Assembly: GCA_030710605.1 (NCBI GenBank)
Contig: CP092880.1
Coordinates: 8,259,909-8,323,908, forward strand
Source: Cordylochernes scorpioides
Taxonomy: Eukaryota; Arthropoda; Arachnida; Pseudoscorpiones; Chernetidae
Length of the DNA: 64,000 nt
Reading direction: 5' to 3'
The notes under the pieces were generated by a model. The model saw only the letters and a list, made by a program, of their open reading frames with translations, was not told the DNA's origin and ran no database searches. The translations under genes were made by a program, and so were the position numbers. Positions 3,601 through 62,055 of this stretch are shown here, piece by piece; position 1 is the first letter of the stretch, and every line of letters starts with the position of its first letter.

Positions 3601-6600
3601 ACAAGGGGATAAGAAACAACAACAACAACAGACCTTTCTGCAATGATATGAGTTATTGAATAAGAGGGCTTGGGCTCGATTCCCGCATTGGACACTTTTT
3701 TTCTGTTTAAAGAGCCAAGCCCTCTCATTCAATAACTCATATCATTGCAGTAAGGTCTGTAGAGATAATATTTGATGATATTTAAAAGAAACGTATTACC
3801 AGTAAATTTATTTGTGTAAAATATTTTTGACATGTATAAAACCACTGGAAGAATTCACTACTGATGAGTCAGACCCTCCCATTATTTTATCATTACAATA
3901 AAGGCAGTAGAAAATTGATTTATTTTAAAAAAGAATCATATGCCTCAAAAATAGGTCAAATTGCATATATACACAAGGTAATAAGACCAAATCCAAATAA
4001 ATAAATAGTGTGTGACGTTTCGGTAACAACGCTGTTACCATCTTCAGACAACAAATAAATTCGATTTGATCTTATTACCTTTTATTTCTAATCTATAATC
4101 TAAATTGTACCATATCAACTCCAAATAGGTCAATTATATGTGATGTTTCTGTAACAGAATTTGTTACCATCTTCAGACAAAAATAGTCACTGGCCTTGGG
4201 CAGGGGTTGGCAAACTGTGACTTGTGAGTCACATGCGGCTCTTTGGATGTGAAGCTACGGCTCTTTATATAGTTCCATACATAAATATTTGCGAGTACTA
4301 TGGTAACAATGCTATTACCGAAACGTCACACACTATTTATTTATTTGGATTTATCTTATTATCTTGTGTTTATAATCTACTAGACAGGTGACCCGGGCTT
4401 CGCCCCGGGATTGACCCGTGTGCATATCTACCCGAGTGATATATATTTAGATAAGATTTTTTTAATAATTGTTTGTTATTAGCATTATTTATTTGTTTGC
4501 ATCAGCATAATTTAATCTAATCTTTGATAGAGGGCGCTGTTCGTAAGCTAAGTAGAATAATTTGAATATGTAGTTTTAATAATTGATTTATATATTTTTT
4601 AAAATAGCCTATCGTCTTCCCTGTATTTTTTTACCTATGTATGAAAATTTTGGTTTGAATTAGTGAACTACTGCGAATTTGTATACTGGACATACAAATA
4701 AACAAACATACAAACCAACAAACATACAAACATTGATTTTTATATATATAGATATTCCAAATTGTGCCTTATCATTAAATTTTTCATATGTTTCTCTGTT
4801 ATGACAGATGCTCCTGGGATGTACTTCAACCTCAGCACCCTCCTGTCCAGTGAAGTGGCAATCAGTAAGGGGAAGTTTGATGGTGGCCATCCCGCAGTCC
4901 GTACCATGGCTCTCAACCTGAAACTCCAGGTCCTCACTGTGCTCCTACGGCCTGGTCAACTGGTCTCCCACCCTCTCCATTTCACCCTACTCCTCAAGAC
5001 AGGACCACACCAGAATGAGGTCAACTACACACCATTGTTCTCTTTGTATCCTCTTCCCTTTATTATACCAACAAGTTTGTTTGTTTTAACATTGTGAGAA
5101 ATATTCTTTCTACGAATTTACCATTTAGAATGTTAGACACAAGGTAATAAGACCAAATCCTAATAAATAAATAGTGTGTGACGTTTCGGTAACAGCATTG
5201 TTACCATCTTCAGACAAAAGTACTGAATGAGAAATTTTACCACAGTAATAAGACCAAATCCAAATAAATAAATAGTGTGTGACGTTTCGGTAACAGCATT
5301 GTTACCATCTTCAGACAAAAGTACTGAATGAGAAATTTTACCACAGTAATAAGACCAAATCCAAATAAATAAATAGTGTGTGACGTTTCGGTAACAGCGT
5401 TGTTACCATCTTCAGACAAAAGTACTGAATGAGAAATTTTACCACTATTCTACCACCGAAACGTCACACACTATTTATTTATTTGGATTTGGTCTTATTA
5501 CCTTGTGTTTATAATCTATAATCTGAATTGTGCCTTATCAGAATGTTAGACACTTTCATTGTATTGAATTAGTTAATATCAAAACTTCTTTTTCTTTTTC
5601 AAAATCATTCAAAGCTAATTTCTATTAATACTAAATGATAACTGCAAAAATATTGAGAGGACCTTATACATATAGAGTTAAACCTGTCTATAGCGCCCCC
5701 TCTTGGGACTCACCAAAATAGGATGCTATAGAGAGGGGATGCTATAGATAGGTCACTTTTAATGTAAATCGCATCGTACTACGTATTTAAAATCGGGTCC
5801 TATAGAGAGGGAGGCGCTATTTAGAGGAGGCGTTATAGACAGGTTTAACTGTATATATATATATGCTGTAATATTTCAATATATACTTGATATCCATATG
5901 TAATATAGTTATAGTGTAACAGTCAAAATTGTAGACACAATCTATTTTTTCATTTTGGCCATCATGTAACACAAAATGGAATAATAAAGTTAGATTGAGA
6001 GACAGCCGGCACCCAGACAGAAGAAAGGTCTCACAGTCGGTCCAAAAAACATAGATTACCAACAGTTCCTACCTGGCTCTGAAATAGATCAGACGCTCTT
6101 CGACCGCGCCTTGCTCCCTCTCTCTCTCTCTCTCTCTCTGAGGTTGACATCCAACTTGCCTCGTTCTTTTGAGCGATCCCATTCACACCTGAACCCACTC
6201 TGATCATTGTGACCACCACAACTGCATCAACCTGCCTACCATGACAATCAGGAGACAACCAAATTTACCACACTACAGTCAGTTGACCGGATAAACTCAT
6301 CACAACATATATATGTACAGTTAAACCTGTCTATAGTGCCTCCTCTTGGGACTCACCAAAATATGGTGTTATAGAGAGGGGGTGCTATAGACAGGTCACT
6401 TTTAATGTAAATCGCATCGTACTACATATTTAAAATTGGGTATTATAGAGAGGGAGGTGCTATTTAGAGGGGGTGCTATAGACAGGTTCAACTGTATATA
6501 TAAATAATTATTAATAAGAGAACATCCTTTATATTAAATTTGCCTTTGATAATTGTAAAATATTTTACAAATATCTTTATTTTGAGCTTAGCCTTCATTT

Positions 6601-9600: not shown

Positions 9601-12600
9601 TTTGTCTGTTTTCTTTTTATACCAATACTGAAGCTAAACTCTTGGATTTTGACACATATGATTTTTTTTATGAAGAAATACAGTTAAACCTGTCTATAGT
9701 GCCCCCTCTAAATAGCGCCTTCCTCTCTATAGCGCCCGATTTTAAACATTAAAATGTAAACAATTTACATTAAAAGTGACCTGTCTATAGCACCCCCTCT
9801 CTCGGGGGGTCGGTGGAAGGCTGGTTAAACCGTTTGGTTTACGACCACTACGACCCAGGTTCGATCCCCGCATTGGACACTTTTTTATGTTTAAAAAAAA
9901 AAATGCTCCAATGGCCCCCCCGATTCTTGCAAAAGTCCAACCCCACCAGCGAGTGCAAGTAACCAAACGGGGCTCTGGCACATTTGTAAGTGCAAAGTCG
10001 AACTGCTTTCACATGTGTAGACATGTGGTGCGCTTACAGTAAAAAAAGAAGTCGCTAACTACCCACCATGATTATCATGGCCTGTTCCACGTGTACTAGG
10101 GATAAGCAAAAAAAAACTATAGACAGGTTTAACTGTATAACATTTTTTCTCAGAATTTTAAATCTAACCAATGTAGTTTTTCAGATCAGGATTCCGATGC
10201 CATGGCTCTCAAGATGGTGGAAGTACTACAAGACATGGACTACCACAACGCTATTGTCTCATTGGTTAGTATGCTCTTATTGTGTTAGAAATATTACACA
10301 GAGTGTGGCTTGAGAGATAATTATAAAAATCTAGTTTCAAGTTCCTAATCAATAATCTGTCCCTTGGTTTACTGGTTGCTTGGTGTTTCAGACCACTATC
10401 AAAACCACACCCAGACATACCCAAGTGAAGCTTGGTCGACGTCATCTAATGGACACTTTTGGAGACTCTCTGCGCCATGTCAACAGACTCTATGACCTCA
10501 GTTTTGGACTGGAGGCGCGCAAGGTTCCAGCTCACATTGCACATCTGGTGGATGTGAAGATCCAACAGCGGCTACAGAGCAGGTCTGTGAGTGGTTGAAC
10601 ATCTCTCTGGCCTCAGTCTTGCTACTGAGAACATTACACTATATGCTGGGGGTTGGTGGAAGGATGGTCTAAACTTTTATATTATGATATGTACCAGCAT
10701 GCCATCTTATGTCCATAGTTCATCTAAAATATCCATTCCAAGAGTCTAGCCACAGTATCACTATAAAAGGAAGATCGAAAAATGCAATAGAACAGCGGTA
10801 TGGTAGATTAAACTGGCAAAACTGCTGGGAGGGTTCACTACTGATGAGCCAGGCCCTCCCATTAATTTTTCCATTGCAGTAAGGGCAGTAGAAATTGTTT
10901 AATTTCAAAAAGAATCTTACACATCTAAAATAATTTCGAGTTTTCATAGTCTAAACTGTTGGTTTTCGACCGCTACGACCCGGGATCAAATCTCATATTG
11001 GGCACTTTTTTCTAATATAAAAAAATAATGCTCCAATGACCCCCGATTCTTGCAAAATTTCAACCCCACCAGAGAGTGCTAGTAATCAAACGGAGCTCTG
11101 GCTCATTTGTAAGTGCAAAATCTAACTGCTTTTCACGTGTGTAGACATGTGGTACACTTACAGTAAAAGCAGTCACTAACTACCCACCATGATTATCATG
11201 GTCTGTACCACGTGTATTAGAGATTCCTATAGATGTTGCAAACCATCACCCAACTCTCAGTTACATGATCAAAGGAGATGTTTTTTCTTAATTACACAAT
11301 TTATAAGCAGATATGAGCAACAAATCAAGCTTTATTTTATCGTTAGGGCTCATTTCCAGAGTAGGAGGACTTTTATTATGAGCATGCTGAAATTTCTTGC
11401 TAAGGTTTATCATCAACCCTTTTCTCTTTTCAAGGAAAACTTTTTATGTAAGGCCTACTTGTAGTCAAATTATGAATGCTCACTCTCTCTGTGTATTTTG
11501 ATCATTAATAATTTGTCTACAAGTCTGCCTTATAGATATAGTTTTCCTTTAAAAGGGCAATAGCAGGTCACTGATATGTTGAAATAAAGTATAATAAAAA
11601 GGTTAAAGAAGTTGAAATGTTCTGTAACCTTACAGGATCAGACGACAGCAGGGGGATGTGTCCAGGTTCCCTGGAGAGTTTGACACCACCTCCTCCCACA
11701 AGATCCGGACTGGAGGAGACATGCAGTTTGCCTTCTCCAACTTCTACTTCCTGATGGATGAGAAGAGAAATGTGACCTTGGAGGAGATCTTCACCAAGTT
11801 TGACATGGATCAGTCCGGGTGGGTGTTTGCTTGCTTCCAATCATCTTCTTCCTCTCTCAGTACTTCTACTGATTGTGGGACACAGGGTCTCTCCATATCT
11901 CCCTCCTTCAATGCTTTCCTCTACTGAGGGTGGTCCACATGGTCTCTCCATATCTCCCTCCTTCAATGTCTTCCTCTACTGAGGGTGGGCCACATGGTCT
12001 CTCCATATCTCCCTCCTTCAATGTCTTCCTCTACTGAGGGTGGGCCACATGGTCTCTCCATATCTCCCTCCTTCAGTGCCTTCCTCTACTGAGGGTGGGC
12101 CACATGGTCTCTCCATATCTCCCTCCTTCAATGTCTTCCTCTACTGAGGGTGGGCCACATGGTCCCTCCATATCTCCCTCCTTCAGTGTCTTCCTCTACT
12201 GAGGGTGGGCCACATGGTCTCTCCATATCTCCCTCCTTCAATGTCTTCCTCTACTGAGGGTGGGCCACATGGTCTCTCCATATCTCCCTCCTTCAATGTC
12301 TTCCTCTACTGAGGGTGGGCCACATGGTCTCTCCATATCTCCCTCCTTCAATGTCTTCCTCTACTGAGGGTGGGCCACATGGTCTCTCCATATCTCCCTC
12401 CTTCAATGTCTTCCTCTACTGAGGGTGGGCCACATGGTCTCTCCATATCTCCCTCCTTCAATGTCTTCCTCTACTGAGGGTGGGCCACATGGTCTCTCCA
12501 TATCTCCCTCCTTCAATGTCTTCCTCTACTGAGGGTGGGCCACATGGTCTCTCCATATCTCCCTCCTTCAATGTCTTCCTCTACTGAGGGTGGGCCACAT

Positions 12601-15600: not shown

Positions 15601-18600
15601 CTAAGCAAAAGAAAATTGTACCATATATCAGTGTGAAGTTAACTCAAGGTATGTTGGCAGACTGCAGTGAACCTCCAGCTGCTCCAAGACTGCCCCAGGC
15701 TCTCCCACCGTCTGCTGTCCCACTTCGGCAGAGTCCACGCCAACAAGTTTGAAGTCCTGGGAGAGGAAGATGTCACCTTTGTCATGGTACCCAACAACCA
15801 ATTCCAGGCTGCCCAGGCCCTGGACAAGGTGCTCAAACATCCCAGGTGAGTGGACACCTCTATGTATGCAGCTACCACCTATGATACCTCACTGCGCCAT
15901 CTTTTATGAGAATTCAGAACTATTCTAGACGCGTATGATTCTTTTAAAAATTAAACAATTTTCTACTTCCTTTACTGCAATGAAAAATTAATGGGAGGGC
16001 TTGGATCATCAATGTTGAACACTCCCAGTAGTTTTACCAATTTAAAGGTATTGTATTCCAATTGATTACACACAGCGCTCAACGTTAATTATTGTTTAAT
16101 TAACTACAAGGTAAAAGGATTATATATAGATTAAATGGTAAACATGGAGAAAGAGAATATGTCACATAGCGACGCCGCTTGCAGGGTTGCGTCAACAGGA
16201 AGTGACGTCAGCTCCAGGGTTACCGAGCCAACCGTCCGCGGTCCAGCAAAAGGGTTCACCACAGATGAGACAGGCCCTCCCATTAATTTTTCATTACAGT
16301 AAAGGCAGTAGAAAATTATTTCATTTTTTAAAAAATATATATATATAAATAAAAATACGCGTCTATAATAATTTCAAATTCACATTTATTTATATTTTAA
16401 ATATTTTTCCACACACAAAAAATTAAATACAAAATTTATTTGATTTTTTTAGTGCCAAGACTTTTTTGTGAGACTCACCCTGTAAAAACAAGTCGGTGGA
16501 TGAGTGGGTAACACCCTCGATTCCCGACAGTCATGAACTGGGATTGAATCCTGCATTAACCTTTTGTTTAATATGTGAATAACCTTCACATATTATTCAC
16601 TGCTTCAATTATCATAAACTAGGTTGCTCTTGTTGAGCGGTACCTAATAAAGTGATTTTGAACCAGAAATCACCCTGTAAAGTAAAAAAATAAGTTGTTC
16701 CAATCAATAGGAGTTCCCAAATACCCAGTGTGAATACTTGTATCAATTCCCATAACCAACAATTATGGTTACCTAGAGGCCATCAGTTCCTGAGGTATGT
16801 TGGTTGGTGCAGGAAGTTCATCTGTATCAACGACAACCTGGACCATGGCTCCGAAGAGGCTGCCAAGGTGAGGAAGTCTTTGGGGGAACTAAAGTTTTTT
16901 TTTATTATCCTTAGTACACGTACACGGCCTCAAACTACAGGCAAAGTCACACTTTCACCAAAGTGTGCCTGGATCATGGTGCCATGATCAACGAAAGCTG
17001 CACCCCTTTCCATGTACAGCTCGAGGAGCATGAACTCATAGAATTCGTGTAATCTTTACACAAAGGGATAAGAAATAACATGTTGTACAGGCCATGATAA
17101 TCGTGGTGGGTAGAAGTAGACGACTGCTTTTATTGTAAGTGCACCACTATGTATTAGTCATTCAATTTTTTTTTCTCATTGTCAACTTATAAAAGGTTCT
17201 CCTTTTAAAATGGGTAAAATAATGTGGGTGTTATTCTCTTGTAAAATATTCTTGTACAAGATGTACGCTCATGGACAAAACTTAAGGAAGTTAAATAAAT
17301 ATTAATATAATTAATAAATTAAGTAATAATATAAACAAGAACTGGAGGATCCCACCTAAGCACAACTACTACAGTGGAGTGAATCCAGGAAGAGCTCTGA
17401 ACCTCAGGCAGCATCAAACAACACTAACAAGATTTAGAACAGGCCAACTCAAGCCATTGAAGATAGAATCTACCCTACTTGCCTAAAATGTAGCTTGGCA
17501 CCTGCAGCTCCAGAACACATTTTGGCTTGCATTAGATACACTAAACAGGACCTTTGGGAGAGACCGCTGTTTATCATCAAACAGCTTGAGGAGCATGGAC
17601 TCATGGAATTTGTGTAATCTTTACACAAGGGGATAAGAAACAACATCAGTATAACAGACCTATTTGCCATTTTAAAAAATACATTTCACACACATTGTTC
17701 TTTCACTTGTCTAGCTCCATGTTTGCTGGTCTGTTACACAGCTACCATTGTTTATGTGCACAAAGGTAATGTTTCAAGTAAAACCATTTAGTTCCACACT
17801 GTGAGCTTACAAAGCCATCACTCTAGTCAACAATGATTGTGTGTAAATTTGAAACTATTATAGACGTGTATGATTCTTTTAAAAATTAAACAATTTCTAC
17901 TATCCTTACTTCAATGTAAAAATTAATGGGAGGGCCTGGCTCATCAGTGGTGAAACTGCTGAGAGGGTTCACCACTGATGAGCCAAGCCCTTCCATTAAT
18001 TTTTACATTGAAGTAAGGATAGTAGAAATTGTTTAATTTTTAAAAGAATCATTCGCATTTATAATAGTTTCGAATTTTCATAACAGATGGCGCGCTGATG
18101 CATCTTAATGATTGTGTATGTCTTCTTCTTCTTTCTTATCTCCACTCAATCATATTAGGGTATCAAGTTGTGACCCTTGATGGTGTCTTTTTGACAACCA
18201 TCATGTTGTTGTTGTTGTTGTTTCTTATCCCCTTGTGTAAAGATTACACGAATTCCATGAGTTCATGCTCCTCGAGCTGTTTTATGATGAGCAGCGGCCT
18301 CTCCCAAAGGTCCTGTTTAGTGCATCTAATGCAAGCCAAAATGTGTTCTGGAGCTGCAGGTACCAAACTACATTTTGGGCAAGTGGGATAAATTTTGTTA
18401 TTATTTTCTATCTTCAATGGCTTGAGATGGCCCGTTCTAAATCTTGTTAGTGTTGTTTGATGCTGTCTATTTTTGATCTTCAGAGCTCCTCCTGGGTTCA
18501 CTCCACTGTACCAACTGTGCTTAGGTGGGATCCTCCAGTTCTTATTTATTTTTGTTTTGGCTATTGTTTCTATTTCTTTAAAAGTAAGTTTATTTTTCTG

Positions 18601-21600
18601 TGGCAAGGGTTCTTTTGTGCCTTTTTTTGCTAGCACATCAGCAGCTTCATTGCCTTCAATGCCAACGTGTGAGGGTATCCATTGAAAGTGAATTTTTGAG
18701 GTTTTTGAGAGTTTTTGGAGATAACCAATTATGTTCCTGCTTACTTTGTCTCTGAGTTCCCCTGTGTGACTCAAGTGTTGTATGGCACTTCTACTATCAG
18801 TAAGAATCCAGATATCGTGATGTTTAGTGTTTCTGATGGATTTTAAGGCTTCATAGATGGCTATAAGTTCTGATTTGAAGACTGAGCAAAAATCTGGGTT
18901 TCTTCTGTTCATTTTCTCAATGCCATTTGTGGTTTTGATGAGACAGCCACTGCCAGTGTGTCCTAGCTCGTCTCTGCTACCATCGGTATAGATAGTTATT
19001 GCATTTTTAGGAATGTTATTAATTATTTCTAATGATAATTGTTTTAAGTATTCTGGATTTTGGTATTGTTTGTTGGTGGGTTCATTTAAAGTGGCATTAA
19101 AAATAACATTTTGTAGTGGTTTGCATGGAGAAATTTTTTCTGCTAAATAATTTTTTTCCACTTTATATTTTAAAAATTCATTTCTTTTGGCCAGGTGTAG
19201 AGGGCCTTCTTTTTTGAGTCTTAAATTGGATTCCCAATTAAGTATGTACTTGGAAGTTCTGTGTTTGTTTCCATAACTCTTGATTTTGTTTATATATTTT
19301 GGCAGATTGTAGCTTCTTCTATCCTTTAAGGGCATAATGTCTGCCTCGTAAAGTACAATATCATTAGGGCAGGTATTACGAAGACCTGTAATAATTCTAG
19401 CTGCACTTAGTTGTATCCTTTCCAGTGATTTTAGATTTGTTTCAGATGCTGTACCATAGATTTGATATCCATATTCCAGGATAGGTCTAATTAGAGATGT
19501 GTAAGTTAATTTTAGTGTGGTTGCATCGGCTCCCCACTCTCTTCCTGAAATATATTTCAGGATTTTTAGTCGGTCTCTTCCTTTTCTAATAACTTCTTCA
19601 ATGTGTTTACTGGAGTTAATTTCTGGATCCAGGGTGTAGCCAAGATATTTAGGATGTTTATTATATTGCAATTGTTGTTCTTTCAGAATAATTTTTGGTC
19701 TTATTTTGTATAGTTTCTTATCGGTAGTAAAAAGACAGGTTTCAGATTTTTGGGGGTTAAATTCTAATTTATGTTTATTAGCAAATTTTTCTAGGTGGAA
19801 AAGAGTCTTGTTCAAATCTCTTTCAGCTTTTTTCCAGTTATTATTGCTGCTCCATAGAATAATGTCATCAGCGAAAAGTCCAATATTGGTTTTATGTGAA
19901 ATTTTTTCTTCTATGCCTGCAATAAATAGGGTGAAGAGAGTTGGGCTAAGGACTGATCCTTGTGGTAATCCTTGGTACAATTTGAAGGTTTTAGATAGAG
20001 TGCCATTATATTTGACCCTGATGTATCTATTTTTAAGGAAATCATTTATCCAAGTGATAGCTTTTCCATCAATTTTGAAATGTTTGTATAATTTTGTAAT
20101 TAACTTGTTTTTCCATACCTTATCGAAAGCTTGTGTAAGGTCTAAAAAAGCAGCTATTGTGTGGTTAGTTGGTTTTCTGTTTTGTGCATCTTTTACCTTT
20201 TGTGTGAAAAATAAGAGTTGGTCTATTGTCCCATGTCCTTTCCTAAATCCATATTGTTCTTTTGGTAAGAGATTTCTTGTGTCAAGATGGTAGGTAAGTC
20301 GTCTGAGTATAATTTTTTCCATTAATTTGCAGCAAATACTTGTGAGGGAGATAGGTCGGTAGTTTTTTGGGTCATCAGCAGATTTGTCAAGTTTTTTAAT
20401 AGGAATTATTGTTGCAGTTTTCCAGTCTTGAGGCAATTTTCCAGTTTTCCAGGAGTTATTGAAAATATCAAGAAGCTTTTCTTTGCCATTTTTGCCCAAG
20501 TTTGATATCATTTGGCCATGGATTCCATCTGGCCCAGGAGTCTTGTTTAGGTCAGTGTTTTCTAATGCATAATCTAGCTCTTTCATATTGATTTTTTCAT
20601 GGAAAATATTATGAGTGCTAGTGACGTTTTTACAGTCATGGATAATCTTTCGGGCCTTTTTTTCAACTTTCTTATCTTTTATTTCAAATTTGATTTTACT
20701 ACTTATTTGATATGAATTACCTAAAAGATTAGCAGCATTTTTGTCATTAGTTGCTGGGGTACCATCTGTATTCTTAATCATATTTGTGTTTTCAGTTTGT
20801 GGCTGGGCTCTGTCAATTTGTTTTGCCAAATGCCAAAGTTTTGTATTTGGGTTTCTTGGGTTCAGGTTTTCACAAGTTTGTTTCCATTTTTCCCTTTTCA
20901 TATTTACGTATAATCTTTTTATTTTTGCATTCACAATGTTCAGTTCAGTTCTACAATTTGTTTGGTTTTGGGTGCACTTTTTTTGTAGTTCATTTCTTTT
21001 AGTTATAAGTGTTTGAATATCTTTTGCCTGGTGTGTATAATTTGGAATCCATTTCTTAATATTACCTCTTGGTATTGAAACTTTGGCTGCTTTAATAATG
21101 GTGTTTTTGAAAGATATCCAATTTTGTTCCAGATCTTTCATTCTAGTGGGTGCTTTTCTAAAGTCTTCATTGGTGTTTTGCTGGTAAAGATTCCAATTAG
21201 CCTTTTTGAAGTTCCAGAATTTTTCTTTAATTGAGCTGGTTTTGGTCTTGGTGCTAATTTCTATCAAAATAGGCAAATGATCACTTCCAATACTTTTTAA
21301 TATTTGCCATTTGCATTTGTGGAAAATGTCAGGACTGGAGAAACTTATATCAAGGGCTTGTGCGGTATTATAACTGTAGGAATGGTGGGTAGGATTCCCA
21401 TCATTTAAGCACATGAAGGCATTGTCGTCAAATAAGTTTGAAAGTATTTTGCCTCTTGGGTTTGGCGTGGAACATCCCCATAGTTGATGTTTGGCATTAA
21501 GGTCACCTACAATAATAGTGTTGTCTGTAAGAAATTGAGCCATTGTTCCATCGTCAATAAGTTTATTGTTTGGTGGGTGATACATATTGAATATGTTGAT

Positions 21601-35900: not shown

Positions 35901-38900
35901 TTGGTGTCTTGAACGGCAGTTTCAATGTAGTCCCTTGCATGCTCACAGTGGTACTCGATCCGATCAATCATCTCACCCTGGAGCACACACATTACCCCCT
36001 TTGTATAAAACAGAACTTCTATTGGAAAGATCACCTTCATGAGACTTCAAGGAAAAACTACACAAGGTAATAAGACCAAATCCAAATAAATAAATAATGT
36101 GTGACGTTTCGGTAACAGCATTGTTACCGTCTTCAGACAAAAGTACTAAATGAGAAATTTTACCACTATTCTACCACCGAAACGTCACACACTATTCATT
36201 TATTTGGATTTGGTCTTATTACCTTGTGATTATAATCTATAATCCAAATTGTGCCTTATCAAGGAAAAACTACATTATTTTTTAACAGCCTCTTATGTGT
36301 GGGACATTCTCTATTGCTTTAGTTGAAAGTGGATTGTCCATCTCTTCTTCTACTTCTTTCTTCTTTTTTTTTTTTATCCCTAGTACACGTGATACAGGCC
36401 ATGATAATCATGGTGGGTAAAAGTAGGCGACTGCTTTACTGTAAATGTACCACATATCTACACATGTGAAAAGCAGTTTGACTTTGCACTAACAAATGTG
36501 CCAGAGCCCCATTTGGTTACTTGCACTCGTTGATGGGGTGGGACTTTTGCAAGAATCGGGGGCCATTGGAGCATTTTTTTTTTTTAAATCAGAAAAAAAG
36601 TGTCCAATGTGGGAATCGAACCCGGGTCGTAGGGGTTGAAAACCAATGGTTTAGACCATCCTTCCACCAACCTCCCTTCTTCTTTCTTATCTTCATCATG
36701 ACTGGTTGAAGTAGAAAGCATCTGCCTTTGTCATTAATACTGGGAACACTACTCAGTGGCAGGCCACTGACTTAGCTCCAAAAGAAATGGTCCATAATAA
36801 ATATGTATATAGAGTAGAACCTCTCTCTAAAGGATACCTGGTTGCAGAGCCAAAGTAATACAAATGGTATTTTTAATGATGAAAACTGTTCTTTGTAGAG
36901 AGGTGTCCATTCTTGGAGGTTCTACTGTATATAGAAAAATACATTGGTCATAAGAATCCTACATCCAAGTATAACATTTAATAAATTAATTTATTATACT
37001 ATTATTTTTATTATGTTTTTATACTAATGTATTACAGTTAAAACTGTCTATAGCGCCCCCCTCTAAATAGCGCCTTCCTCTCTATAGAGCCCAATTTTAA
37101 ATACATAGTACGATGCAATTTACATTGAAAGTGACCTGTCTATAGCACCCCTTCTCTATAGCACCCTATTTTGGTGAGTCCCAAGAGGGGGCACTATAGA
37201 CATGTTTAACTGTATATTTTATGTTAATTAATTTTAGTAATTAAATTTGGCCATGAATCTTAACTTGGTGGTGTAGGCATGAACACAAAGGGGGCTATGG
37301 TCAACAACTGTATGTTGTTGTTTCTTATCCCCTTGAGTAAAGATTACCCAATTCCATGAGTTCAAGCTTCTCGAGCTGTTTGATGATAAAACAGTGTCCC
37401 AAAGGTCCTGTTTAGTGCATATAATAAGAATAAGATAAGAAACTATACAAAATAAGACCAAAAATTATTCTGAAAGAACAACAATTACAATATAATAAAC
37501 ATCCTAAATATCTTGGCTACACCCTGGATCCAGAAATTAACTCCAGTAAACATATTGAAGAAGTTATTAGAAAAGGAAGAGACCGACTAAAAATCCTGAA
37601 ATATATTTCAGGAAGAGAGTGGGGAGCCGATGCAACCACACTAAAATTAACTTACACATCTCTAATTAGACCTATCCTGGAATATGGATATCAAATCTAT
37701 GGTACAGCATCTGAAACAAATCTAAAATCACTGGAAAGGATACAACTAAGTGCAGCTAGAATTATTACAGGTCTTCGAAATACCTGCCCTAATGATATTG
37801 TACTTTACGAGGCAGACATTATGCCCTTAAAGGATAGAAGAAGCTACAATCTGCCAAAATATATAAACAAAATCAAGAGTTATGGAAACAAACACAGAAC
37901 TTCCAAGTACATACTTAATTGGGAATCCAATTTAAGACTCAAAAAAGAAGGCCCTCTACACCTGGCCAAAAGAAATGAATTTTTAAAATATAAAGTGGAA
38001 AAAAATTATTTATCAGAAAAAATTTCTCCATGCAAACCACTACAAAATGTTATTTTTAATGCCACTTTAAATGAACCCACCAACAAACAATACCAAAATC
38101 CAGAATACTTAAAACAATTATCATTAGAAATAATTAATAACATTCCTAAAAATGCAATAACTATCTATACCGATGGTAGCAGAGACGAGCTAGGACACAC
38201 TGGCAGTGGCTGTCTCATCAAAACCACAAATAGCATTGAGAAAATGAACAGAAGAAACCCAGATTTTTGCTCAGTCTTCAGATCAGAACTTATAGCCATC
38301 TATGAAGCCTTAAAATCCATCAGAAATACTAATTATCAAGATATCTGGATTCTTACTGATAGTAGAAGTGCCATACAACACTTGAGTCACACAGGGGAAC
38401 TCAGAGACAAAGTAAGCAGGAACATAATTGGTTATCTCCAAAAACTCTCAAAAACCTCAAAAATTCACCTTCAATGGATACCCTCACACGTTGGCATTGA
38501 AGGCAATGAAGCTTCTGATGTGCTAGCGAAAAAAGGCACAAAAGAACCCTTGCCACAGAAAAATAAACTTACTTTTAAAGAAATAGAAACAATAGCCAAA
38601 ACAAAAATAAACAAGAACTGGAGGATCCCACCTAAGCACAGTTGGTAGTGAACCCAGGAGGAGCTCTGAACATCAGAAATAGACAGCATCAAACAACACT
38701 AACAAGATTTAGAACAGGCCATCTCAAGCCATTGAAGATAGAAAATAATAACAAAATTTATCCCAATTGCCTAAAATGTAGTTTGGTACCTGCAGCTCCA
38801 GAACACATTTTGGCTTGCATTATATGCACTAAACAGGACCTTTGGGAGAGGCCGCTGCTCATCATAAAACAGCTCGAGGAGCATGAACTCATGGAATTCG

Positions 38901-44900: not shown

Positions 44901-47900
44901 CAACAGTAGCCTTAGGTAGAGTTAGGGAGTCAGTGGAAGTGTGATCTAAACCATTGGGTTTCGACCACTACGACCTGGGATTGAATCCTGCATTGGACAA
45001 TTTTTTTCTAATTAAAAATAAAATGCTCCAATGGCCCCCGATTTTTGCAAAAGTCCAACTCCACCAGCAAGTGCAAGGCTCATGTGTAAGTGCTCTGGCA
45101 CATTTGTAAGTGCAAAGTTGAACTGCTTTTCACATGTGTAGACACTAGCCGAATGACCCGGGCAACGCCCGTGTTTTACCCGATTGAATGTTTTGATTCA
45201 AATACTATTTGTTACAATTATAAATTGGCGCCTTATATAAATGCATATGTTAGTTAATAACTATAGCCTATGTGCTTTATCTGTCTATGTACTGTTGGCT
45301 TCCGTAGACGTCTCTTACTGGGAAAAAGAAAGAGAGGATTCCATTTGGTTATTAACTAATATATGCATTTATTTAAGGAGCGACCCGCTCCAACACAATG
45401 GTTACAAAAACGAAAAAGCGAGTGGGGGGGGGGGAAAGGTGGCGTGATCATAGCCGACCAATAGGAGGGCACCATTCCAAAAAAAAAGCAAACTGTGACA
45501 GAGATGACTGATGAAGAATGACACTCGTAACTGTATATAGAATGTGGTGCACTTACAGTAAAAGCAGTCACCAACTTCTACCCATCATGGTTATCATGTC
45601 CTGTACCACGTGTACTAGAGATAAGCAAAAAAAAAAAGGTAAAAATGGCAGAGTTTCACCTTTTAACTTGGCCCTGACTCTGTTGGCCGCTTTCTTGATC
45701 TCTGCCATGAGGTCCTCCAGCTGTTGTTTCTCCTCTGTAACCCAGCCATGTCACAATGATAGAATACATATGTAGGAGGAGAAAGGGGACTTACTCTCAT
45801 CTGTCTGGGGGGCCGAGAGGATGGCACTGTGTTTCTTCTTCACCTCCTCCACATTGGTCTGGATCTTGTCTATGTTTTCTCTCACCTCCTCCACCTGCCA
45901 TCACACCCCCATTCTCCAGGCTGGTTGTTGGGACCACACACAGTCTTCTGACATACTTGGACTCACTTTCAAGCTAGAGCAATATCTTGAAAATACTTCG
46001 GCCAGAGTAAATCTTTTTATTACCTCGACATTTTGACAAAAATCTTTTGTCCTCGTCATGAGCAAACATAAATGAAAACATTTAGCAAGGCGTTAAAAAT
46101 TATTCTAAGGTTCCAAGGGCGTTCTCACGCGATATTTCAAATTTTGTACATAATAGATATCAATTTATATATACTATTGTGAAATCTTTGTAAATATTAT
46201 TATTATTATTTCATAATACAATATAATGCGGCTTATGATTGTAGAATGACATTTGAAATTTCTCCTTGAAATAATTTTAATTAATAATAATCCTTTAATT
46301 TTTATTTGCTCCTGACAAGGACAAAAGATTTTTGTTGAAACGTCGAGATAATAAAATAGATTTACTGGCCGAAGTATCTTTATTTTCATGAAATATGAAT
46401 GCCGGCCAGGCAGCCTCTATCTTTATGACAATCCATATAATCTTCATAATGAAGAGAACAATAAAATTTATATTAAATACCCCTCCATTAGAAAGCAGCA
46501 CTTAGTATATTTATAGTGCCTTATAATTCCTTTTCAGTGCCCATCAAAAGGCACACATGAGTTCAAAGAGATATATTTGAATGTAATTCTACTGTCCTAT
46601 AAGCTTATGTCCATAGTTTTCTTGAAAACCATTTCTGAGATTCCATCCTTCAGTGCTGCATATATAAGCAGAATCGTCCAATACAGTATTAGAGCTCTTT
46701 GAAGCGGTCTGGTGGATTAAATTGGCGAAACCACTGGGAGGGTTCACCACTGATGAGCCAAGCCCTCCCAATATATTTTTTCATCGCAGTAAGGACAGTA
46801 GAAGTTTGTATTATGTATAAAAGAAACATTCGTGCTTTTAAATCCTTTCATTTTAGATATTTATACAAGTCCAGCATATTGTACTGGCTTAGTAACGCAT
46901 CCACCGCTGCTTTCTACTGTAAAATTGACCTTGTCATCAGAGTAATTTCCTTATACTATGGGGATGCTATTGGATTATGGATGAAAACTATGGAATCGAG
47001 CAGAAACTGGTCTTAAAACTGTTACTCTGAAGAGGCTGGCTAGTTTACAGGTTCACCAAAGAGATTGAGATTGAAACACCTTTTATTGACATTTTGTCAA
47101 TTATGTTTTACAAAATTAATGAAGAATAATGGGAATATTTACAATGATTTATGAGTGAGGAAGGCTCCACCATTTGGTTCACCATAGAGAGCAATAGTCA
47201 AAGCCACAGGTTGGTACAGGTTTAACGTACAACAACAAGGCTGATTAGAAAACTGTGAGAGGGTTTTAATAGATAATTGCTATTAAACACCAGAGTGGTA
47301 TATTAAAGATAGAGGTTACCTGGCCGGCATTTATATTTATAAAAAAAAATAGACACTTCAGCCAGATAAATTTATATTTTCTCAACATTTCAACAAAAAT
47401 CTCTTGTGCTAAGATTGTGGAAATTAAACTCTTTAAAACGATCATTAAAACAATAATAAACAATAAGAGGAGCTTCTTGTGTAGATTTCTTTATTACCGC
47501 AAGCTTTCGAACAGAACGTTCTTCATCGGGCGTAGATAGTAAAACGTGCTAACATGCTATTAGAGGAGAAAAACTAATATATACACCAATAAATTTACAT
47601 ATTGAAGAGAAAATAGCGTAAAAAGAGAATACAACATAAATATTTAAAATGAAATTTACATAATACAAGCGTGACGACTAAAAAATAAGCAATAAACTTA
47701 AAAGAGACTAAAAACTAAGGTAAAATTATTATTAAAACGGCGACATCCCTACACCAATAGAACAAAGAATAAAACAGTATATGGAAGTTAAAATCTACCA
47801 GACCAAGGAGGGTCCCACCCAGTGCTGCCACAATCTTTGAGATATAAGAGGGGGGGGGGGGGGGGTGAAAGACAAGCTATTTATAAAGTATCTGGTAAAT

Positions 47901-50900
47901 GTCTGGGAGGTCTATTTTGCGGTTACAACTATTGTTTTGTGTGGAAATAATAGATTCTAGGCAGAGTCGGTGATATTTGTTATGTATATGCCGGTATTTA
48001 ACTTGAGGATGGTCGAGATCAAAACTATGGCCTGTTTGTGCTATATGCGTGAAAATTAAGGATTTGGGATCTTTATTGCGGATGTTACGTCTGTGCTCTG
48101 AAATACGGATGCCAGTGGTTCTTCCTGTTTCTCCAACATAAGAAGTTGGGCAATCCAGGCACTGTATGGAATAAACTGCGCCGGTAGAGTTTATGGGTAG
48201 GGTGGGTTTGTCAGATTTGGTGATGTGATGTCTAAGGATGGTGGCTAAGTTGGGGGGACTATTGTAGAGAACTTTTATGCCGTATGGGCGTAGGACTCTG
48301 GAAATGGATACTGCGGCAGGGGAGAACGGGAGCCAACAAGTGGCCCTGTGAATTGTAGTGGTTCTTTGGACACGTGGATCAAAAGTATGTTTTACTATGA
48401 AATCTATGGGATAACCAGCGGTTGTTAATAAGGAATGGATTCTAGATCTTTCTATTGTTTTAAAAATGGGTAAGGAACAATGGGTAACAATTCTTTTAGT
48501 TAAGGTCCTGACTGTATTAATTTTAAAGGAGATGGGACTATTGGAGGAGAAATGCGTATATTGGGGAGGGATATGCTTCTTATGAAAAACAGAGGTGTGA
48601 AAAGACTGAGGGGTGCGAATAATAAGGATGTCTAGGAAAGGCAAAACAGAACCTATTTCTGTTTCGTATGTAAACTTAATATGGGGGTTGAAATCGTGCA
48701 AAGTACTGTATGTGAGTTGAAGGCTGTCTGTTTTAATAATGCAAAAGATATCATCTACATATCTCCTCCAATAGTAAATACCGGAAGGGAGGGCTTGATT
48801 GATCCACGCGTCCAAAGAACCCATGACTATTTCAGAGATGATTGATGATAGGGGACTACCCATAGGGGTTCCTCTGGTCTGTTTATAAAACTGCTTGTTG
48901 AAGGTGAAAGTGCAAACAGAGAGGCAGAGAGAAGCCAGTTGCAGGATATGGGAAGCCGTTTGTGTGTCAATGTTATTGGCAACAAGGAACGATTGCAATT
49001 TGTCAGCAATGAGAGAGTGTGGCAGTGAGAGGTATAAGGACGTGACATCAAAAGACACCATACTGTGTAGGGGTGGTGGTTGTAAATTAAGGAGGTCTTC
49101 TATGAAACTGGGGGGGTGCGTAATGCTATATGTGTTAGGATGGTCTTTCATGAGAGGGGACAAAAAACTTACCAAAACTTGGCTACAGAGTAGGCTGGAG
49201 AAAGATGATAAGCTATTATGGGCCTGAGTGGGACCCCCGGCTTGTGTATCTTAGGCAAGCCATAAATATAAGCTTCCCTATCCAGGCAAGATGTAAATAG
49301 GACATATTGATCAGGTGTGATGATGCTGGATTTCTTCATTTCGCATAGCGCCTTTCTGAATGATTTGGTCAACGCAAGATTTTCCTGGGGTGAAATGGAA
49401 GAAAAGGTAGTGTTGTCCTGGAGAATGTCCGTCATCTTAGAAAGATAGTCTGAGCGGTCAAGTACGACAGTGTGGTTTCCTTTGTCCGCTTTAATGAAAA
49501 TGAGAGACTTGTAACTTTGCAACTTCTTAATGATCTGGCGATGTCTATTGTTGGAAGGTGGTATTATTAACAACCGCTGGTTATCCCATAGATTTCATAG
49601 TAAAACATACTTTTGATCCACGTGTCCAAAGAACCACTACAATTCACAGGGCCACTTGTTGGCTCCCGTTCTCCCCTGCCGCAGTATCCATTTCCAGAGT
49701 CCTACGCCCATACGGCATAAAAGTTCTCTACAATAGTCCCCCCAACTTAGCCACCATCCTTAGACATCACATCACCAAATCTGACAAACCCACCCTACCC
49801 ATAAACTCTACCGGCGCAGTTTATTCCATACAGTGCCTGGATTGCCCAACTTCTTATGTTGGAGAAACAGGAAGAACCACTAGCATCCGTATTTCAGAGC
49901 ACAGACGTAACATCCGCAATAAAGATCCCAAATCCTTAATTTTCACGCATATAGCACAAACAGGCCATAGTTTTGATCTCGACCATCCTCAAGTTAAATA
50001 CCGGCATATACATAACAAATATCACCGACTCTGCCTAGAATCTATTATTTCCACACAAAACAATAGTTGTAACCGCAAAATAGACCTCCCAGACATTTAC
50101 CAGATACTTTATAAATAGCTTGTCTTTCACCCCCCCCCCCCCTCTTATATCTCAAAGATTGTGGCAGCACTGGGTGGGACCCTCCTTGGTCTGGTAGATT
50201 TTAACTTCCATATACTGTTTTATTCTTTGTTCTATTGGTGTAGGGATGTCGCCGTTTTAATAATAATTTTACCTTAGTTTTTAGTCTCTTTTAAGTTTAT
50301 TGCTTATTTTTTAGTCGTCACGCTTGTATTATGTAAATTTCATTTTAAATATTTATGTTTTATTCTCTTTTTACGCTATTTTCTCTTCAATATGTAAATT
50401 TATTGGTGTATATATTAGTTTTTCTCCTCTAATAGCATGTTAGCACGTTTTACTATCTACGCCCGATGAAGAACGTTCTGTTCGAAAGCTTGCGGTAATA
50501 AAGAAATCTACACAAGAAGCTCCTCTTATTGTTTATTATTGTTTTAAAAATCTCTTGTCTTCGTTAGGGGAAATAAATAAAAATAGAGCATTTGGTAAGG
50601 TGTTAAACATTATTCTAAAATTTATTTTTATTTATTTCTCTTAAGGTAATAAGACCAAATCCAAATAAATAAATAGTGTGTGACGTTTCGGTAACAGCAT
50701 TGTTATCATCTTCAGACAAAAGTACTGAAATCTCTCTCATTCAGTACTTTTGTCTGAAGATGGTAACAACGCTGTTACCGAAATGTCACACACTATTTAT
50801 TTATTTGGATTTGGTCTTATTACCTTGTGTTTATAATCTACTAGCCGAATGGCCCGGGCAAAGCCCGTGATTTACCCGATTGAATATTTTTATTCAAATA

Positions 50901-56112: not shown

Positions 56113-56455
56113 ATACATTTAAACCTGTCTATAGCGCCCCCTCTTGGGACTCACCAAAATATGGTGCTATAGACAGGTCACTTTTAATGTAAATTGCATC
56201 GTACTACGTATTTAAAATTGGGTGCTATAGAGAGGAAGGCGCTATTTAGAGGGGGTGCTATAGACAGGTCACTTTTAATGTAAATCGCATCGTACTACGT
56301 ATTTAAAATTGGGTGCTATAGAGAGGAAGGCGCTATTTAGAGGGGGTGCTATAGACAGGTCACTTTTAATGTAAATCGCAACGTAGTACGTATTTAAAAT
56401 TGGGTGCTATAGAGAAGAAGGCGCTATTTAGAGGGGGCACTATAGACAGGTTTAA
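56113..56455. repeat. MITE D with internal triplication, interrupted by piggyBac
   Basis: ACTTTTAATGTAAATCGCAT recurs about every 91-93 bp from about 56178. The right terminal repeat is cut at TTAA by the piggyBac element and resumes at 59206 with TTAACTGTA. Confidence 0.9.
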
Positions 56456-59205
56456 CCCGGCAGCGGTCGCAATGGGTAAAAATTACCCAGAAGGAACTTT
56501 TCGAAAATATTTCTATATTAAAAAATATATATATTTAAAATATATTCTCAGTACCTTTCTAAATCTATCTAAAGATTATTATAATAAACCTATAATTTTA
56601 ATTTTATGACATATATTCATTTTATTAGCATGTTTGGGTCAATTTTACCCAGTGCGACCTTTTGAGTTCTAGTCATTGGGTAATTTTTACCCAGCGCGAC
56701 CTTTTAACGCTTTTGGTTTTGGTTTGCGTAATTAAGTTTCGAGTTACTTTCTGGCTTCTTGTTGTTTGGTTTTGCTGCCCCAAGTGCAATAATACAATCT
56801 GTGTAGAATTGTAGGGTAGTCGGTTCACAAAACACTGAGCGAAATTCGGTAGAAGAATTCGCTGTGATGATTCTTTGTGGGCTGTTGCAAGGATTTAAAT
56901 AAGATCACTAAATAGCAGAAAGGAGGGGGTAAAAATCTCCTTCTAACTAACTTTATTTAATACATATTAAGAGGACAGAGGAAAACACGCGACTGGTGGG
57001 TAGCAAAACCAAGCCGTGTTCTAATGTTTATGTTGGCGGCTGGCGCCGCCGGCATTGTTTACTGTCACCCAAGCTGTCTGGACGGCGTCCGGAGATCCAT
57101 TATTCCACACAATCTATTCTTCCAACAATGAGGTAGGATTAATATTTTATTTCCTCTTTTTACATTATTTTACATAAAATGCTTTCAAATGCTGATTTTC
57201 TCCGTGATGATAATAATATTCCAAATCCCGATGATGAGGAATCAGAAACTGATGATCATATAGAAGAGAGGAATTGGAGTACAGACACTGAACAGTATAC
57301 ATTATCAGAAGAAGAAAACAATGAGGATCCAAGCTTCAATTACTATATAGGAAAGGACCAAAAGACTAAATGGAAGAAAGCTCTTCCCCCAAAAAATGTT
57401 CGAACTCGCAGTGAAAATATTATCACCCATCTACCAGGGGTAAAGGGTGAAGCAAAAAATGCTAAATCGATATTAGATTGTTGGAATCTCTTTATAGATG
57501 ACAATATACTTGAATGCATAGTTACAAATACTAACATTTACATTAGGAATATTCAGCAGAACTATAGCAGAGAAAGAGATGCTAATTTGACAAACCTACA
57601 TGAAATTAAAGCTTTATTGGGAATTATTTACTTTCTTGGGGTCATGAAAGCGAATAAAATGAATACAGATGATGCATGGGCAAGAGATAGTACTGGATTT
57701 GAATTGTGTAGAATAGCTATGTCTGAAAACAGATTCCGATTTCTTCTCAGAGTAATTCGTTTTGATGACAAAGCTACAAGAAATGAAAGACTTCGTCAAG
57801 ATAAATTAGCAGCTGTGAGATTGATTCTTGATACTTTTGTAAAAAATTGCCAAAAGCATTATTCTCCTTCGGAATATATAACGGTGGATGAAAAGCTTGA
57901 CACTTTCAGAGGGAAATGCAATTTCAGGCAGTATATTCCGAGTAAACACAATAAATATGGAATAAAATTATTTGCTCTCGTGGATTCAAAAATGTTTTAT
58001 ACTTGTAACTTGGAGATTTATTCAGGAAAAAACCCTGAAGGTCCTTACAATGTCAGCAACAGTCCAAGTGACGTTGTGGAACGATTGTGTGAGCCAATCA
58101 AGGGAACTGGCCGCAATGTAACAATGGATAACTGGTTCACCAGTTATTCTTTAGCTCTAAAACTTTTACAACAATTTAGACTAACAATTGTTGGTACCTT
58201 AAAAAGAAATAAAAAGGAAATCCCCTCAGAGTTTGTCATCAGCAGAGGTAGAAATGTACACACTAGTGTTTTTGGCTTTCAAAGTGAAATGACACTTCTT
58301 TCATACAAGCCTAAAGCGAATAAAGTTGTACTTATGCTTTCAACTCTGCACCACGATGCAAATATAGATGATTCAACGGGAGAATTGAAAAAGCCAGAGA
58401 TGATAATGTTTTATAATATGACAAAGGGTGGTGTAGATATGATGGACGAAATGACAGCTACATATAACTGTGCTAGAAATTCAAGAAGATGGCCCATGGT
58501 TATTTTTTATTCACTTTTAAATATTGGGGCAATAAATTCCCAGATAATTCATTTTGCAAATGGCAACGCATCAAAGGTTAAATCAAGACGTCATTTTTTG
58601 AAAACCTTATCCTTAGATCTTATTGAAGAGATGGTCAAAGTTCGCACAGTAAGCGGAAGAATGCCATGTGAAATAAAGGAAAAGGCATCCGATATTTTTA
58701 ATTTGTTAGAGCCTGGTCCATCTAAAAAGCCAAAAATAGGAGAAAGACATCGATGCAAGAAATGCCAGAAAGAAAAAAAGGACAGAAAAACTATTCAACA
58801 TTGCCAGTACTGTTTTGCTTTTTTGTGTAAGGAACACTCTGTAATAATTTGTCAAGAATGTCATAAAGGACAAAACAAGTCCTAATTTCTATGAAAGGAA
58901 GTGATAACTTTCATACATATTTATATTTTATCACCTATCTTCAATATATATTTTTATTTTCATAAAATAGTCAAATATATCATAAATATTTGATATTTTG
59001 ATTTGTTATTAATAAAATAAATAAAATATGATTTTTATATCTCAGGATTTTATGTAAAGTTATTTAATAGACAAATCATTATTCTAACATAGAAAACAAT
59101 AAAAATATTCAAAAGAATATTTGATTTATTTAGATTTTTAAAAGTGGGTAAATTTTACCCACCGCGACCTTTCAAGGTATAAAAGAGGGCGCGACCGCTG
59201 CCGGG
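56456..59205 (+). mobile_element. Complete piggyBac-family transposon, 2750 bp
   Basis: Perfect 15-bp terminal repeats CCCGGCAGCGGTCGC at 56456-56470 and, inverted, 59191-59205. TTAA lies outside both ends (56452-56455, 59206-59209). Subterminal copies of TTTTACCCA followed by GCGACCTTT occur near 56650, 56690 and 59155 and may bind transposase. One intact transposase gene lies inside. Intact ends and ORF suggest recent or present ability to move. Confidence 0.97.
57179..58885 (+). CDS. piggyBac-family transposase, 568 aa
   Basis: Cuts and pastes the element at TTAA without leaving a footprint, as known for the family. After an acidic N-terminal region (1-60) comes the DDE_Tnp_1_7-type catalytic domain. 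D237 (in TVDEKLDTFRGK), D317 (in TMDNWFTSY), D420 and D423 (in GGVDMMDEM) match the four catalytic Asp of the moth enzyme (268, 346, 447, 450) in order and spacing. The last 45 residues are a Cys/His-rich domain (CKKC, CQYC, CKEH, CQECH), as in other members where it binds the ends. No stop or frameshift. The ATG at 57179 is the first in frame. An ATG at 57127, before a possible intron (AATGAGGTAGGATT), could be an alternative start. Confidence 0.97.
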   Translation: MLSNADFLRDDNNIPNPDDEESETDDHIEERNWSTDTEQYTLSEEENNEDPSFNYYIGKDQKTKWKKALPPKNVRTRSENIITHLPGVKGEAKNAKSILDCWNLFIDDNILECIVTNTNIYIRNIQQNYSRERDANLTNLHEIKALLGIIYFLGVMKANKMNTDDAWARDSTGFELCRIAMSENRFRFLLRVIRFDDKATRNERLRQDKLAAVRLILDTFVKNCQKHYSPSEYITVDEKLDTFRGKCNFRQYIPSKHNKYGIKLFALVDSKMFYTCNLEIYSGKNPEGPYNVSNSPSDVVERLCEPIKGTGRNVTMDNWFTSYSLALKLLQQFRLTIVGTLKRNKKEIPSEFVISRGRNVHTSVFGFQSEMTLLSYKPKANKVVLMLSTLHHDANIDDSTGELKKPEMIMFYNMTKGGVDMMDEMTATYNCARNSRRWPMVIFYSLLNIGAINSQIIHFANGNASKVKSRRHFLKTLSLDLIEEMVKVRTVSGRMPCEIKEKASDIFNLLEPGPSKKPKIGERHRCKKCQKEKKDRKTIQHCQYCFAFLCKEHSVIICQECHKGQNKS

Positions 59206-59372
59206 TTAACTGTACTTATATTGCTAAACATTGTCAGAACTACAAAATAGTTTACTGAATATGATCTACTACACTCTTCTATATGATGGGGATAATCTAC
59301 TGAACAAAGTAAAAAATGTATTGTTCTCACAGAGAGAAGATAAACCCAGGATTCTGGAGCAGAGATTTATAG

Positions 59373-60559: not shown

Positions 60560-61125
60560 TAATGTACTAATCATTTGTTGCAGAGTAAAGAGAATTCAAC
60601 CACCCACACAGTCATATGGAAGGAGGTTGGTTCAATATCAAAGACATTTATAAGAGAACAAATGGTTTGAGACTACTTAGAAAATCTGTGACTTCAGCGC
60701 CATTAAGGGGCGGCTTAGAAGTCGATGCAAAAGTTGTTAACAGGCTGCTGCTCCCATTGCCTTTTTAAAAATAGAGAATGTGGAGGCAAAATATAATTAA
60801 AAAGCCATTAACTCTCTCTCTGGTGATAGTGTTTTGTAAAGGACTCTAAAATAAATGTTGGTAACTCTGAGTATGAGCCTCTATTTTTGTGTTTTTAAAT
60901 ATTTAATGCTGTTGTATTGAGGGGAGATGTGTAAACAAAAAAAGTGCTGATAACATTTTAACTAATGTAAAGGGGAGGAGGGGGGAAAAAACCAATTTGC
61001 TTTGTCTAAGATCCAATTATATTGAGTCATTTGGAAAGTTCTTTGTCTATCAATGACAAAATTCAAGAGAGCTTTCTGAGAAAAAAAAACAATGGATGGA
61101 CCATTTTTTTCTTGAAAACCTGTCA
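60560..61125. other. Unique sequence left of the 16/18-bp array
   Basis: No gene or family repeat was recognised. Confidence 0.4.
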
Positions 61126-62055
61126 TCTATTGGGTATATCATCTATTGGGTATATCATCTATTGGGTATATCATCTATTGGGTATATCATCTATTGTGGG
61201 TATATCATCTATTGTGGGTATATCATCTATTGGGTATATCATCTATTGGGTATATCATCTATTGGGTATATCATCTATTGGGTATATCATCTATTGTGGG
61301 TATATCATCTATTGAATATATCATCTATTGGGTATATCATCTATTGGGTATATCATCTATTGTGGGTATATCATCTATTGGATATATCATCTATTGTGGG
61401 TATATCATCTATTGGGTATATCATCTATTGGGTATATCATCTATTGGGTATATCATCTATTGGGTATATCATCTATCGTGGGTATATCATCTATCGTGGG
61501 TATATCATCTATTGGGTATATCATCTATTGGGTATATCATCTATTGTGGGTATATCATCTATTGTGGGTATATCATCTATTGGGTATATCATCTATTGTG
61601 GGTATATCATCTATTGGGTATATCATCTATTGGGTATATCATCTATTGTGGGTATATCATCTATTGGGTATATCATCTATTGGGTATATCATCTATTGGG
61701 TATATCATCTATTGTGGGTATATCATCTATTGGGTATATCATCTATTGGGTATATCATCTATTGGGTATATCATCTATTGTGGGTATATCATCTATTGGG
61801 TATATCATCTATTGTGGGTATATCATCTATTGGGTATATCATCTATTGGGTATATCATCTATTGGGTATATCATCTATTGTGGGTATATCATCTATTGGG
61901 TATATCATCTATTGGGTATATCATCTATTGTGGGTATATCATCTATTGTGGGTATATCATCTATTGTGGGTATATCATCTATTGGGTATATCATCTATTG
62001 GGTATATCATCTATTGGGTATATCATCTATTGTGGGTATATCATCTATTGGGTAG
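61126..62055. repeat. 16/18-bp minisatellite, about 55 units
   Basis: Two unit types, GGGTATATCATCTATT (16 bp) and the same with GT in front (18 bp), alternate in blocks. A few units carry CTATCG, GAATATA or GGATATA variants. Unit lengths not divisible by three make all three forward frames open; these frames are not genes. Confidence 0.97.

Follow-up and report, generated by a model that had tools for sequence, protein, structure and literature searches.

We consider it very likely that the piggyBac element described here is a structurally complete and probably autonomous transposon of the T. ni type, that its family includes cohorts of passenger-bearing copies moved in trans, and that the latest burst of the family was founded by a copy carrying a solo LTR. 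The element lies in the window, by which we mean the whole stretch of 64 kb that was analyzed, from a genome of 2.62 Gb in 24 contigs. We take the host to be an arthropod from the abundance of RR-type cuticle protein domains (Chitin_bind_4, a domain common in arthropods), of which at least 150 were matched when 150 of 333 candidates were scored, compared with 0 of 14 control genomes. The original prediction had claimed its borders, perfect 15-bp ends, a flanking TTAA pair and a 568-codon open reading frame, and all of these proved exact on re-reading (Table 1). The terminal inverted repeats (TIRs) of the window copy are short and begin with CCC. Genome-wide, the 19-mer consisting of TTAA and the TIR was found at 421 places (≤1 mismatch), compared with 0 for the reversed control, which excludes chance as the source of these ends.

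Table 1 Features of the piggyBac element and its insertion site (window positions)
Feature	Position	Strand	Remarks or basis
Interrupted MITE, main part, with three tandem internal units	56118..56451	.	last bases CTG(TA) at 59210-59214
Left TTAA target-site duplication	56452..56455		sequence reading
piggyBac element proper	56456..59205	+	2750 bp; 13 other copies that were fetched have the same ends
Left TIR CCCGGCAGCGGTCGC	56456..56470	+	15 bp
Left-end palindrome TGGGTAAAAATTACCCA	56473..56489	.	bp 18-34 of the element; probably corresponds to the repeat bound by the CRD in T. ni (LE bp 17-33)
Second palindrome TGGGTCAATTTTACCCA, then GTGCGACC	56635..56651	.	sequence reading
Third palindrome TGGGTAATTTTTACCCA, then GCGCGACC	56677..56693	.	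sequence reading
5-bp duplication CAATC, left of solo LTR	56795..56799	.	sequence reading
Solo LTR (TGTG...CACA)	56800..57109	-	310 bp; retroelement sense opposite to transposase gene
5-bp duplication CAATC, right of solo LTR	57110..57114	.	sequence reading
Transposase ORF	57179..58885	+	568 aa; Pfam DDE_Tnp_1_7, 7e-78
Catalytic Asp237 (T. ni D268)	57887..57889	+	alignment to T. ni transposase
Catalytic Asp317 (T. ni D346)	58127..58129	+	alignment to T. ni transposase
Catalytic Asp420 (T. ni D447)	58436..58438	+	alignment to T. ni transposase
Asp423 (T. ni position 450)	58445..58447	+	alignment to T. ni transposase
C-terminal cysteine-rich stretch, residues 526-561	58754..58861	+	alignment to 6x67
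Right-end palindrome	59145..59161	.	bp 45-61 counted from right end
Right TIR	59191..59205	+	15 bp, perfect match to left TIR
Right TTAA target-site duplication	59206..59209		sequence reading

Based on phmmer, the nearest solved structure to the transposase is that of T. ni piggyBac (PDB 6x67, 6e-99). The next is piggyBat of Myotis lucifugus (PDB 9c0f, 4.1e-30), likewise a piggyBac superfamily transposase but more distant in sequence, with a best stretch that stops at residue 481, before the Cys-rich tail; the 6x67 alignment reaches residue 561. The four catalytic Asp residues and the Cys-rich C terminus that had been claimed all align with the T. ni transposase, the C-terminal Cys/His set with the T. 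ni set, and W438 aligns with T. ni position 465. Positions 450 and 465 of the T. ni enzyme are presumably important. A Pfam search of the transposase gave no separate match for the cysteine-rich domain. The active site of the T. ni transposase is formed by D268, D346 and D447, as described in PMC7351741.

One palindrome of the form TGGGTN7ACCCA is found near each tip, at bp 18-34 on the left and, counted from the right end, at bp 45-61 on the right; the left end has two further ones, at bp 180-196 and 222-238. In T. ni piggyBac, according to Chen et al. 2020 (PMC7351741), the palindrome bound by a CRD dimer is that of left bp 17-33, and the sequence of right bp 34-63 nearly matches that of left bp 7-35. 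From these positions, the offset between left and right palindromes is 27-28 bp in T. ni, compared with 27 bp here, and the internal palindromic repeat lies at near-equal distances from the tip (left 18-34 versus 17-33). According to the same source, an extra CRD site on the T. ni left end increased integration about two-fold; the extra sites were added artificially in that experiment, whereas CRD-type sites of this kind occur naturally in the left end of the window element. The uneven ends share the T. ni arrangement, in which the CRD-type palindrome is close to the tip on the left and lies further inward on the right. TTAA targets, a DDD catalytic core and a C-terminal cysteine-rich domain are also common to the window element and T. 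ni piggyBac (PDB 6x67/6x68). The two differ in transposase length (568 versus 594 aa), in the left end, where the window element has two additional palindromes plus GCGACC, and in the 5′ part, where only the window element has a solo LTR. The 15-bp TIR is unlike the T. ni TIR in sequence; we assume the latter to be 13 bp long, and the T. ni tips presumably also carry CCC.

To place the window copy within its family we searched the genome at the protein and DNA levels, and the counts from both searches are lower bounds. The protein search, in which 77 of 6843 candidates were scored, gave at least 81 matches and covered relatives down to 77% identity. Of these 81 matches, the best 40 were read with their flanks, and 36 had both ends (L028, L033, L044 and L046 were dropped); 33 of these 36 copies are bordered by TTAA left and right. 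Based on patterns with ≤1 mismatch, for each of which the control gave 0, there are 339 right ends, 36 left ends with GGC at bp 4-6 and 310 left ends with TTA, or with TTC one mismatch away. The family is represented by about 340 ends per side, genome-wide. On contigs C1-C4, 47 complete pairs of ends span near 2440 bp (11 pairs), 2750 bp (8), 3760 bp (7), 3858 bp (10) or other lengths (11), as counted with perfect end words only, so that mismatched ends, and thus the TTC type, are left out.

The window copy interrupts the end of a MITE. When its flanks are joined at one TTAA, the unbroken MITE end GACAGGTTTAACTGTA is restored. An uninterrupted version had been claimed at position 5839; an unbroken copy does exist, at 5838, and a second is found at 10122. 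Copies of this very common MITE, which from its CAGT... ends and TA looks like a pogo/Tigger derivative, occur in the window at 5673-5855, 6316-6498, 9679-9800 and 37033-37214. Genome-wide, the MITE end (a 23-mer, ≤1 mismatch) was found at 34,544 places, each containing TTAA, and the control at 0. The empty sites found are MITE paralogues only, none being the window locus itself. The piggyBac insertion in the MITE end is real and not remarkable. A preference of piggyBac for insertion into MITEs is unsupported, given how common the MITE end is and that one other of the 36 copies adjoins a MITE: L047 has sequence of the same family directly to its left, and its right side departs within a few bases. 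Other elements were also seen in the window. These include an open 1314-aa non-LTR retrotransposon protein at 18244-22188 (-) with endonuclease, RT and RNase H, a near-identical 3′ piece of it, recognized by eye, at 37821-38648 (+), a 424-aa RT fragment at 47877-49151 (-; RVT_1, 4.1e-11) that looks Penelope-type, and a 319-codon frame at 61096-62055 in which short GYIIYWVYHLLGISSI-like units recur, and which is a tandem repeat and not a gene. Rfam gave no match in the 64-kb window at gathering thresholds.

The 36 two-ended copies fall into two full-length types. Type A comprises 14 copies of about 2750 bp, including the window copy, all with a 310-bp insert; the 22 type B copies are insert-free. 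Pairwise differences average 0.231% within type A (range 0-0.40%, 91 pairs) and 1.53% within type B (231 pairs). Based on the columns outside the LTR, type A is one clade with an ultrafast-bootstrap value of 100; the tree has no outgroup, and A is placed within B on three grounds, namely midpoint rooting, an LTR site that is empty in B, and branches that are short in A. The 568-aa frame is kept in 11 of 14 type A copies versus 5 of 22 type B copies, the broken or shortened type A frames being those of L020 (132 aa), L032 (543 aa) and L021 (one codon short, 567 aa). Changes private to single ORFs among the 14 type A copies number 17 nonsynonymous, 8 synonymous and 1 stop, near the proportions expected under neutrality (0.70/0.26/0.04), and selection on individual copies is thus not apparent. 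The 14 fetched copies of the window's type are neither strongly diverged nor mostly broken, and this near-identity, together with the high share of kept frames, supports the earlier view of the window copy as autonomous-looking and young.

Near-identical copies could also result from segmental duplication, assembly duplication or gene conversion rather than from recent transposition. One such case is present among the type B copies, L026 and L030 being a duplicated pair on contig C1 with common flanks. In contrast, the 14 type A copies have 14 different flanks and are spread over 10 contigs, and 13 of them have TTAA on both sides (the exception, L013, has TTAT on one side), which makes duplication an extremely unlikely source of the type A copies. 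Recent transposition remains the preferred reading, and one may ask which enzyme was responsible. The young clade might be non-autonomous, with an inactive transposase of its own and copies moved by another piggyBac of the genome; broken copies evidently moved in trans (see below), so that a copy can move even if its frame is not open, and the protein search covered relatives of this family down to 77% identity. However, the catalytic and Cys-rich positions are kept in the transposase, and of the two types compared, the one with the lower divergence has more open frames. We regard a non-autonomous young clade as quite improbable; judged by its integrity, the window copy is probably autonomous.

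The insert that distinguishes type A was absent from the original prediction, as were the nested transposons described further below. It is a solo LTR in antisense orientation, with one edge 69 bp upstream of the transposase ATG and the GC-richer edge facing the gene. A first look in the genome had 2232 candidates, and of the 40 that were scored, 20 are in piggyBac copies, 18 form 9 like-oriented pairs and 2 stand alone. The pairs are spaced by about 4.12 kb in six cases and by 4.33-5.26 kb in the others. These LTRs have TG...CA ends, and 5-bp duplications were found in all 4 pairs read. In the best-scoring paired-LTR relative (G000:C7:73012651-73017079, 99%), the inner pol frame runs counter to the transposase gene, from which the LTR was recognized as antisense. 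The inner frame of the retroelement matched RVT_1 at 1.1e-05, below the Pfam cut-off, and its RT motifs are, we assume, those of BEL/Pao; the source of the solo LTR is probably a BEL/Pao element. The insertion site is unbroken in type B. Matched by place, the LTR is present at 20 of the 36 left ends of the GGC type, six of these 20 not having been read; of the other 16, which were read in part, 15 have an unbroken LTR site and one, L074, departs after 85 bp. The orientation of the pol frame rules out promoter capture by a sense LTR, and any effect would have to be antisense or bidirectional. It is doubtful that the antisense LTR came to act as a new promoter of the transposase gene and in this way started the latest autonomous burst; if true, a DNA transposon would have been revived through captured retroelement regulatory DNA.

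Many older copies of the family form cohorts, each with another nested transposon. We read twelve long copies: five of cohort C, three same-site copies of cohort D along with L083, then L082, and two of cohort E. In the five cohort C copies, a 1.42-kb Tc1-like element occupies a TA of codon 234, shortly ahead of the first catalytic Asp. In the three cohort D copies that share one site, a mariner is inserted in codon 252 on the other strand; L083 has a mariner 2 bp away, and L082 has the same mariner as cohort D at codon 429. The two cohort E copies read have inserts at codons 16 and 413, each named Penelope-like from its look only, with a tandem unit and 12- and 8-bp duplications; the cohort is listed as L086, L087, L060, L062 and L073. 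The passenger of cohort C shows TA insertion, TIRs and a Tc1-type transposase, with an open frame of 343 aa in 3 of the 5 copies read; in the one copy tested, L079, Pfam matches were HTH_Tnp_Tc3_2 (2.4e-17) and DDE_3 (4.5e-15). That of cohort D shows TA insertion and a Mos1-type transposase, and its 263-aa frame in the one copy tested, L084, matched Transposase_1 (1.4e-17) and Mos1 (9.4e-27). Genome-wide (≤2 mismatches, controls 0), there are 135 Tc1 junctions of cohort C and 14 mariner junctions of cohort D. The uninterrupted C site was counted 241 times, which places the Tc1 element at 135 of 376 counted places. At L090 (G000:C1:26789340-26789790), GC-rich, exon-like sequence, which looks to us like an ABCA-type transporter exon, stands where the left end of a Tc1-bearing copy was expected, and for this reason the copy may have been truncated, or else rearranged, close to a gene.

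The flanks differ among the five cohort C copies, and likewise across all twelve long copies. TTAA borders both sides in 12 of 12, which is no independent test as the selection patterns contained TTAA. Based on the piggyBac columns, the five C copies form a clade with a support of 100, as do the D copies, four when L083 is counted, and the two E copies; the support for same-site D is 98. In cohort C the nested Tc1 element has diverged by 1.59% and its carrier by 1.13% (10 pairs), and in same-site D the nested mariner by 1.31% and its carrier by 1.16% (3 pairs). The two E copies, whose lengths differ at both inserts, are only 0.08% apart over aligned columns (1 pair) and lie at different places, from which we infer that a broken piggyBac copy moved recently. 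It could be argued that Tc1 and mariner struck the same hot spots repeatedly and independently, and that the cohorts were not multiplied as units. Mariner did enter the family at least three times, at the D site, in L083 and in L082, and the nested parts of cohort C are somewhat more diverged than their carriers. Yet the piggyBac columns alone unite C in one clade and same-site D in another, and nested and carrier divergence are similar in both cohorts, as tested in 5 of 135 and 3 of 14 cases; repeated independent insertion is very unlikely to account for the cohorts. Given where the frame is broken in these copies, cohorts C, D and E very probably moved as units in trans, with enzyme from other copies.

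The left tip of the element is variable. Bp 4-6 are GGC, TTA or TTC within and between cohorts (e.g., L009, L022 and L088), and the right end of the copies read is always GGC. It looks as though, on several occasions, the right tip had served as the template for the left one, or the left tip had been exchanged between copies. A symmetric GGC left end is unsupported as a mark of young, fast copies: it is also present in cohorts C, D and E, and divergence over the first ~745 bp in cohort C is similar, with 0.85% for five GGC copies versus 0.92% for five TTA copies (10 pairs each). The values for A (0.71%) and for the ‘class unread’ (12.8%) in the same comparison were set aside, as they seem to come from short alignments badly anchored around indels or inserts.

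The multiplication of nested parts through a host transposon resembles that of the MER6 DNA transposon with a SINE piece, as described in PMC6887750. The case in that account is a MITE with one SINE part, whereas here several cohorts of one piggyBac family have different passengers, and some of these, unlike in the MER6 case, have an open transposase frame of their own. Spread of the element by viruses or phages was also considered and rejected: an IMG/VR pattern scan, which reaches close relatives only, gave no viral relative, and no relative was found in the phage collection. No title among those listed in literature searches named this piggyBac family, and a paper on it may exist.

We propose that the arthropod host was invaded by a piggyBac family of the T. 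ni type, or that such a family expanded within it. The transposase would bind the end palindromes through its Cys-rich domain, cut with TTAA hairpins and paste at TTAA, leaving exact empty sites. A few intact copies would serve as helpers that supply transposase in trans to copies broken by a Tc1-like, mariner or other element, and the nested passengers would be copied along with their broken carriers. The Tc1-bearing cohort would have grown to roughly one third of the family. The latest autonomous burst that was seen would go back to a single copy with a solo LTR beside the transposase gene, and the window copy would be part of it.

The piggyBac family is of the known T. ni-like type and has an unusually readable history. 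A single genome records the helper-dependent multiplication of broken copies, which makes cross-mobilisation and passenger load countable. An intact piggyBac with many near-identical copies is a candidate natural gene-transfer tool, and such elements may also serve to study the response of a genome to fresh invasion.
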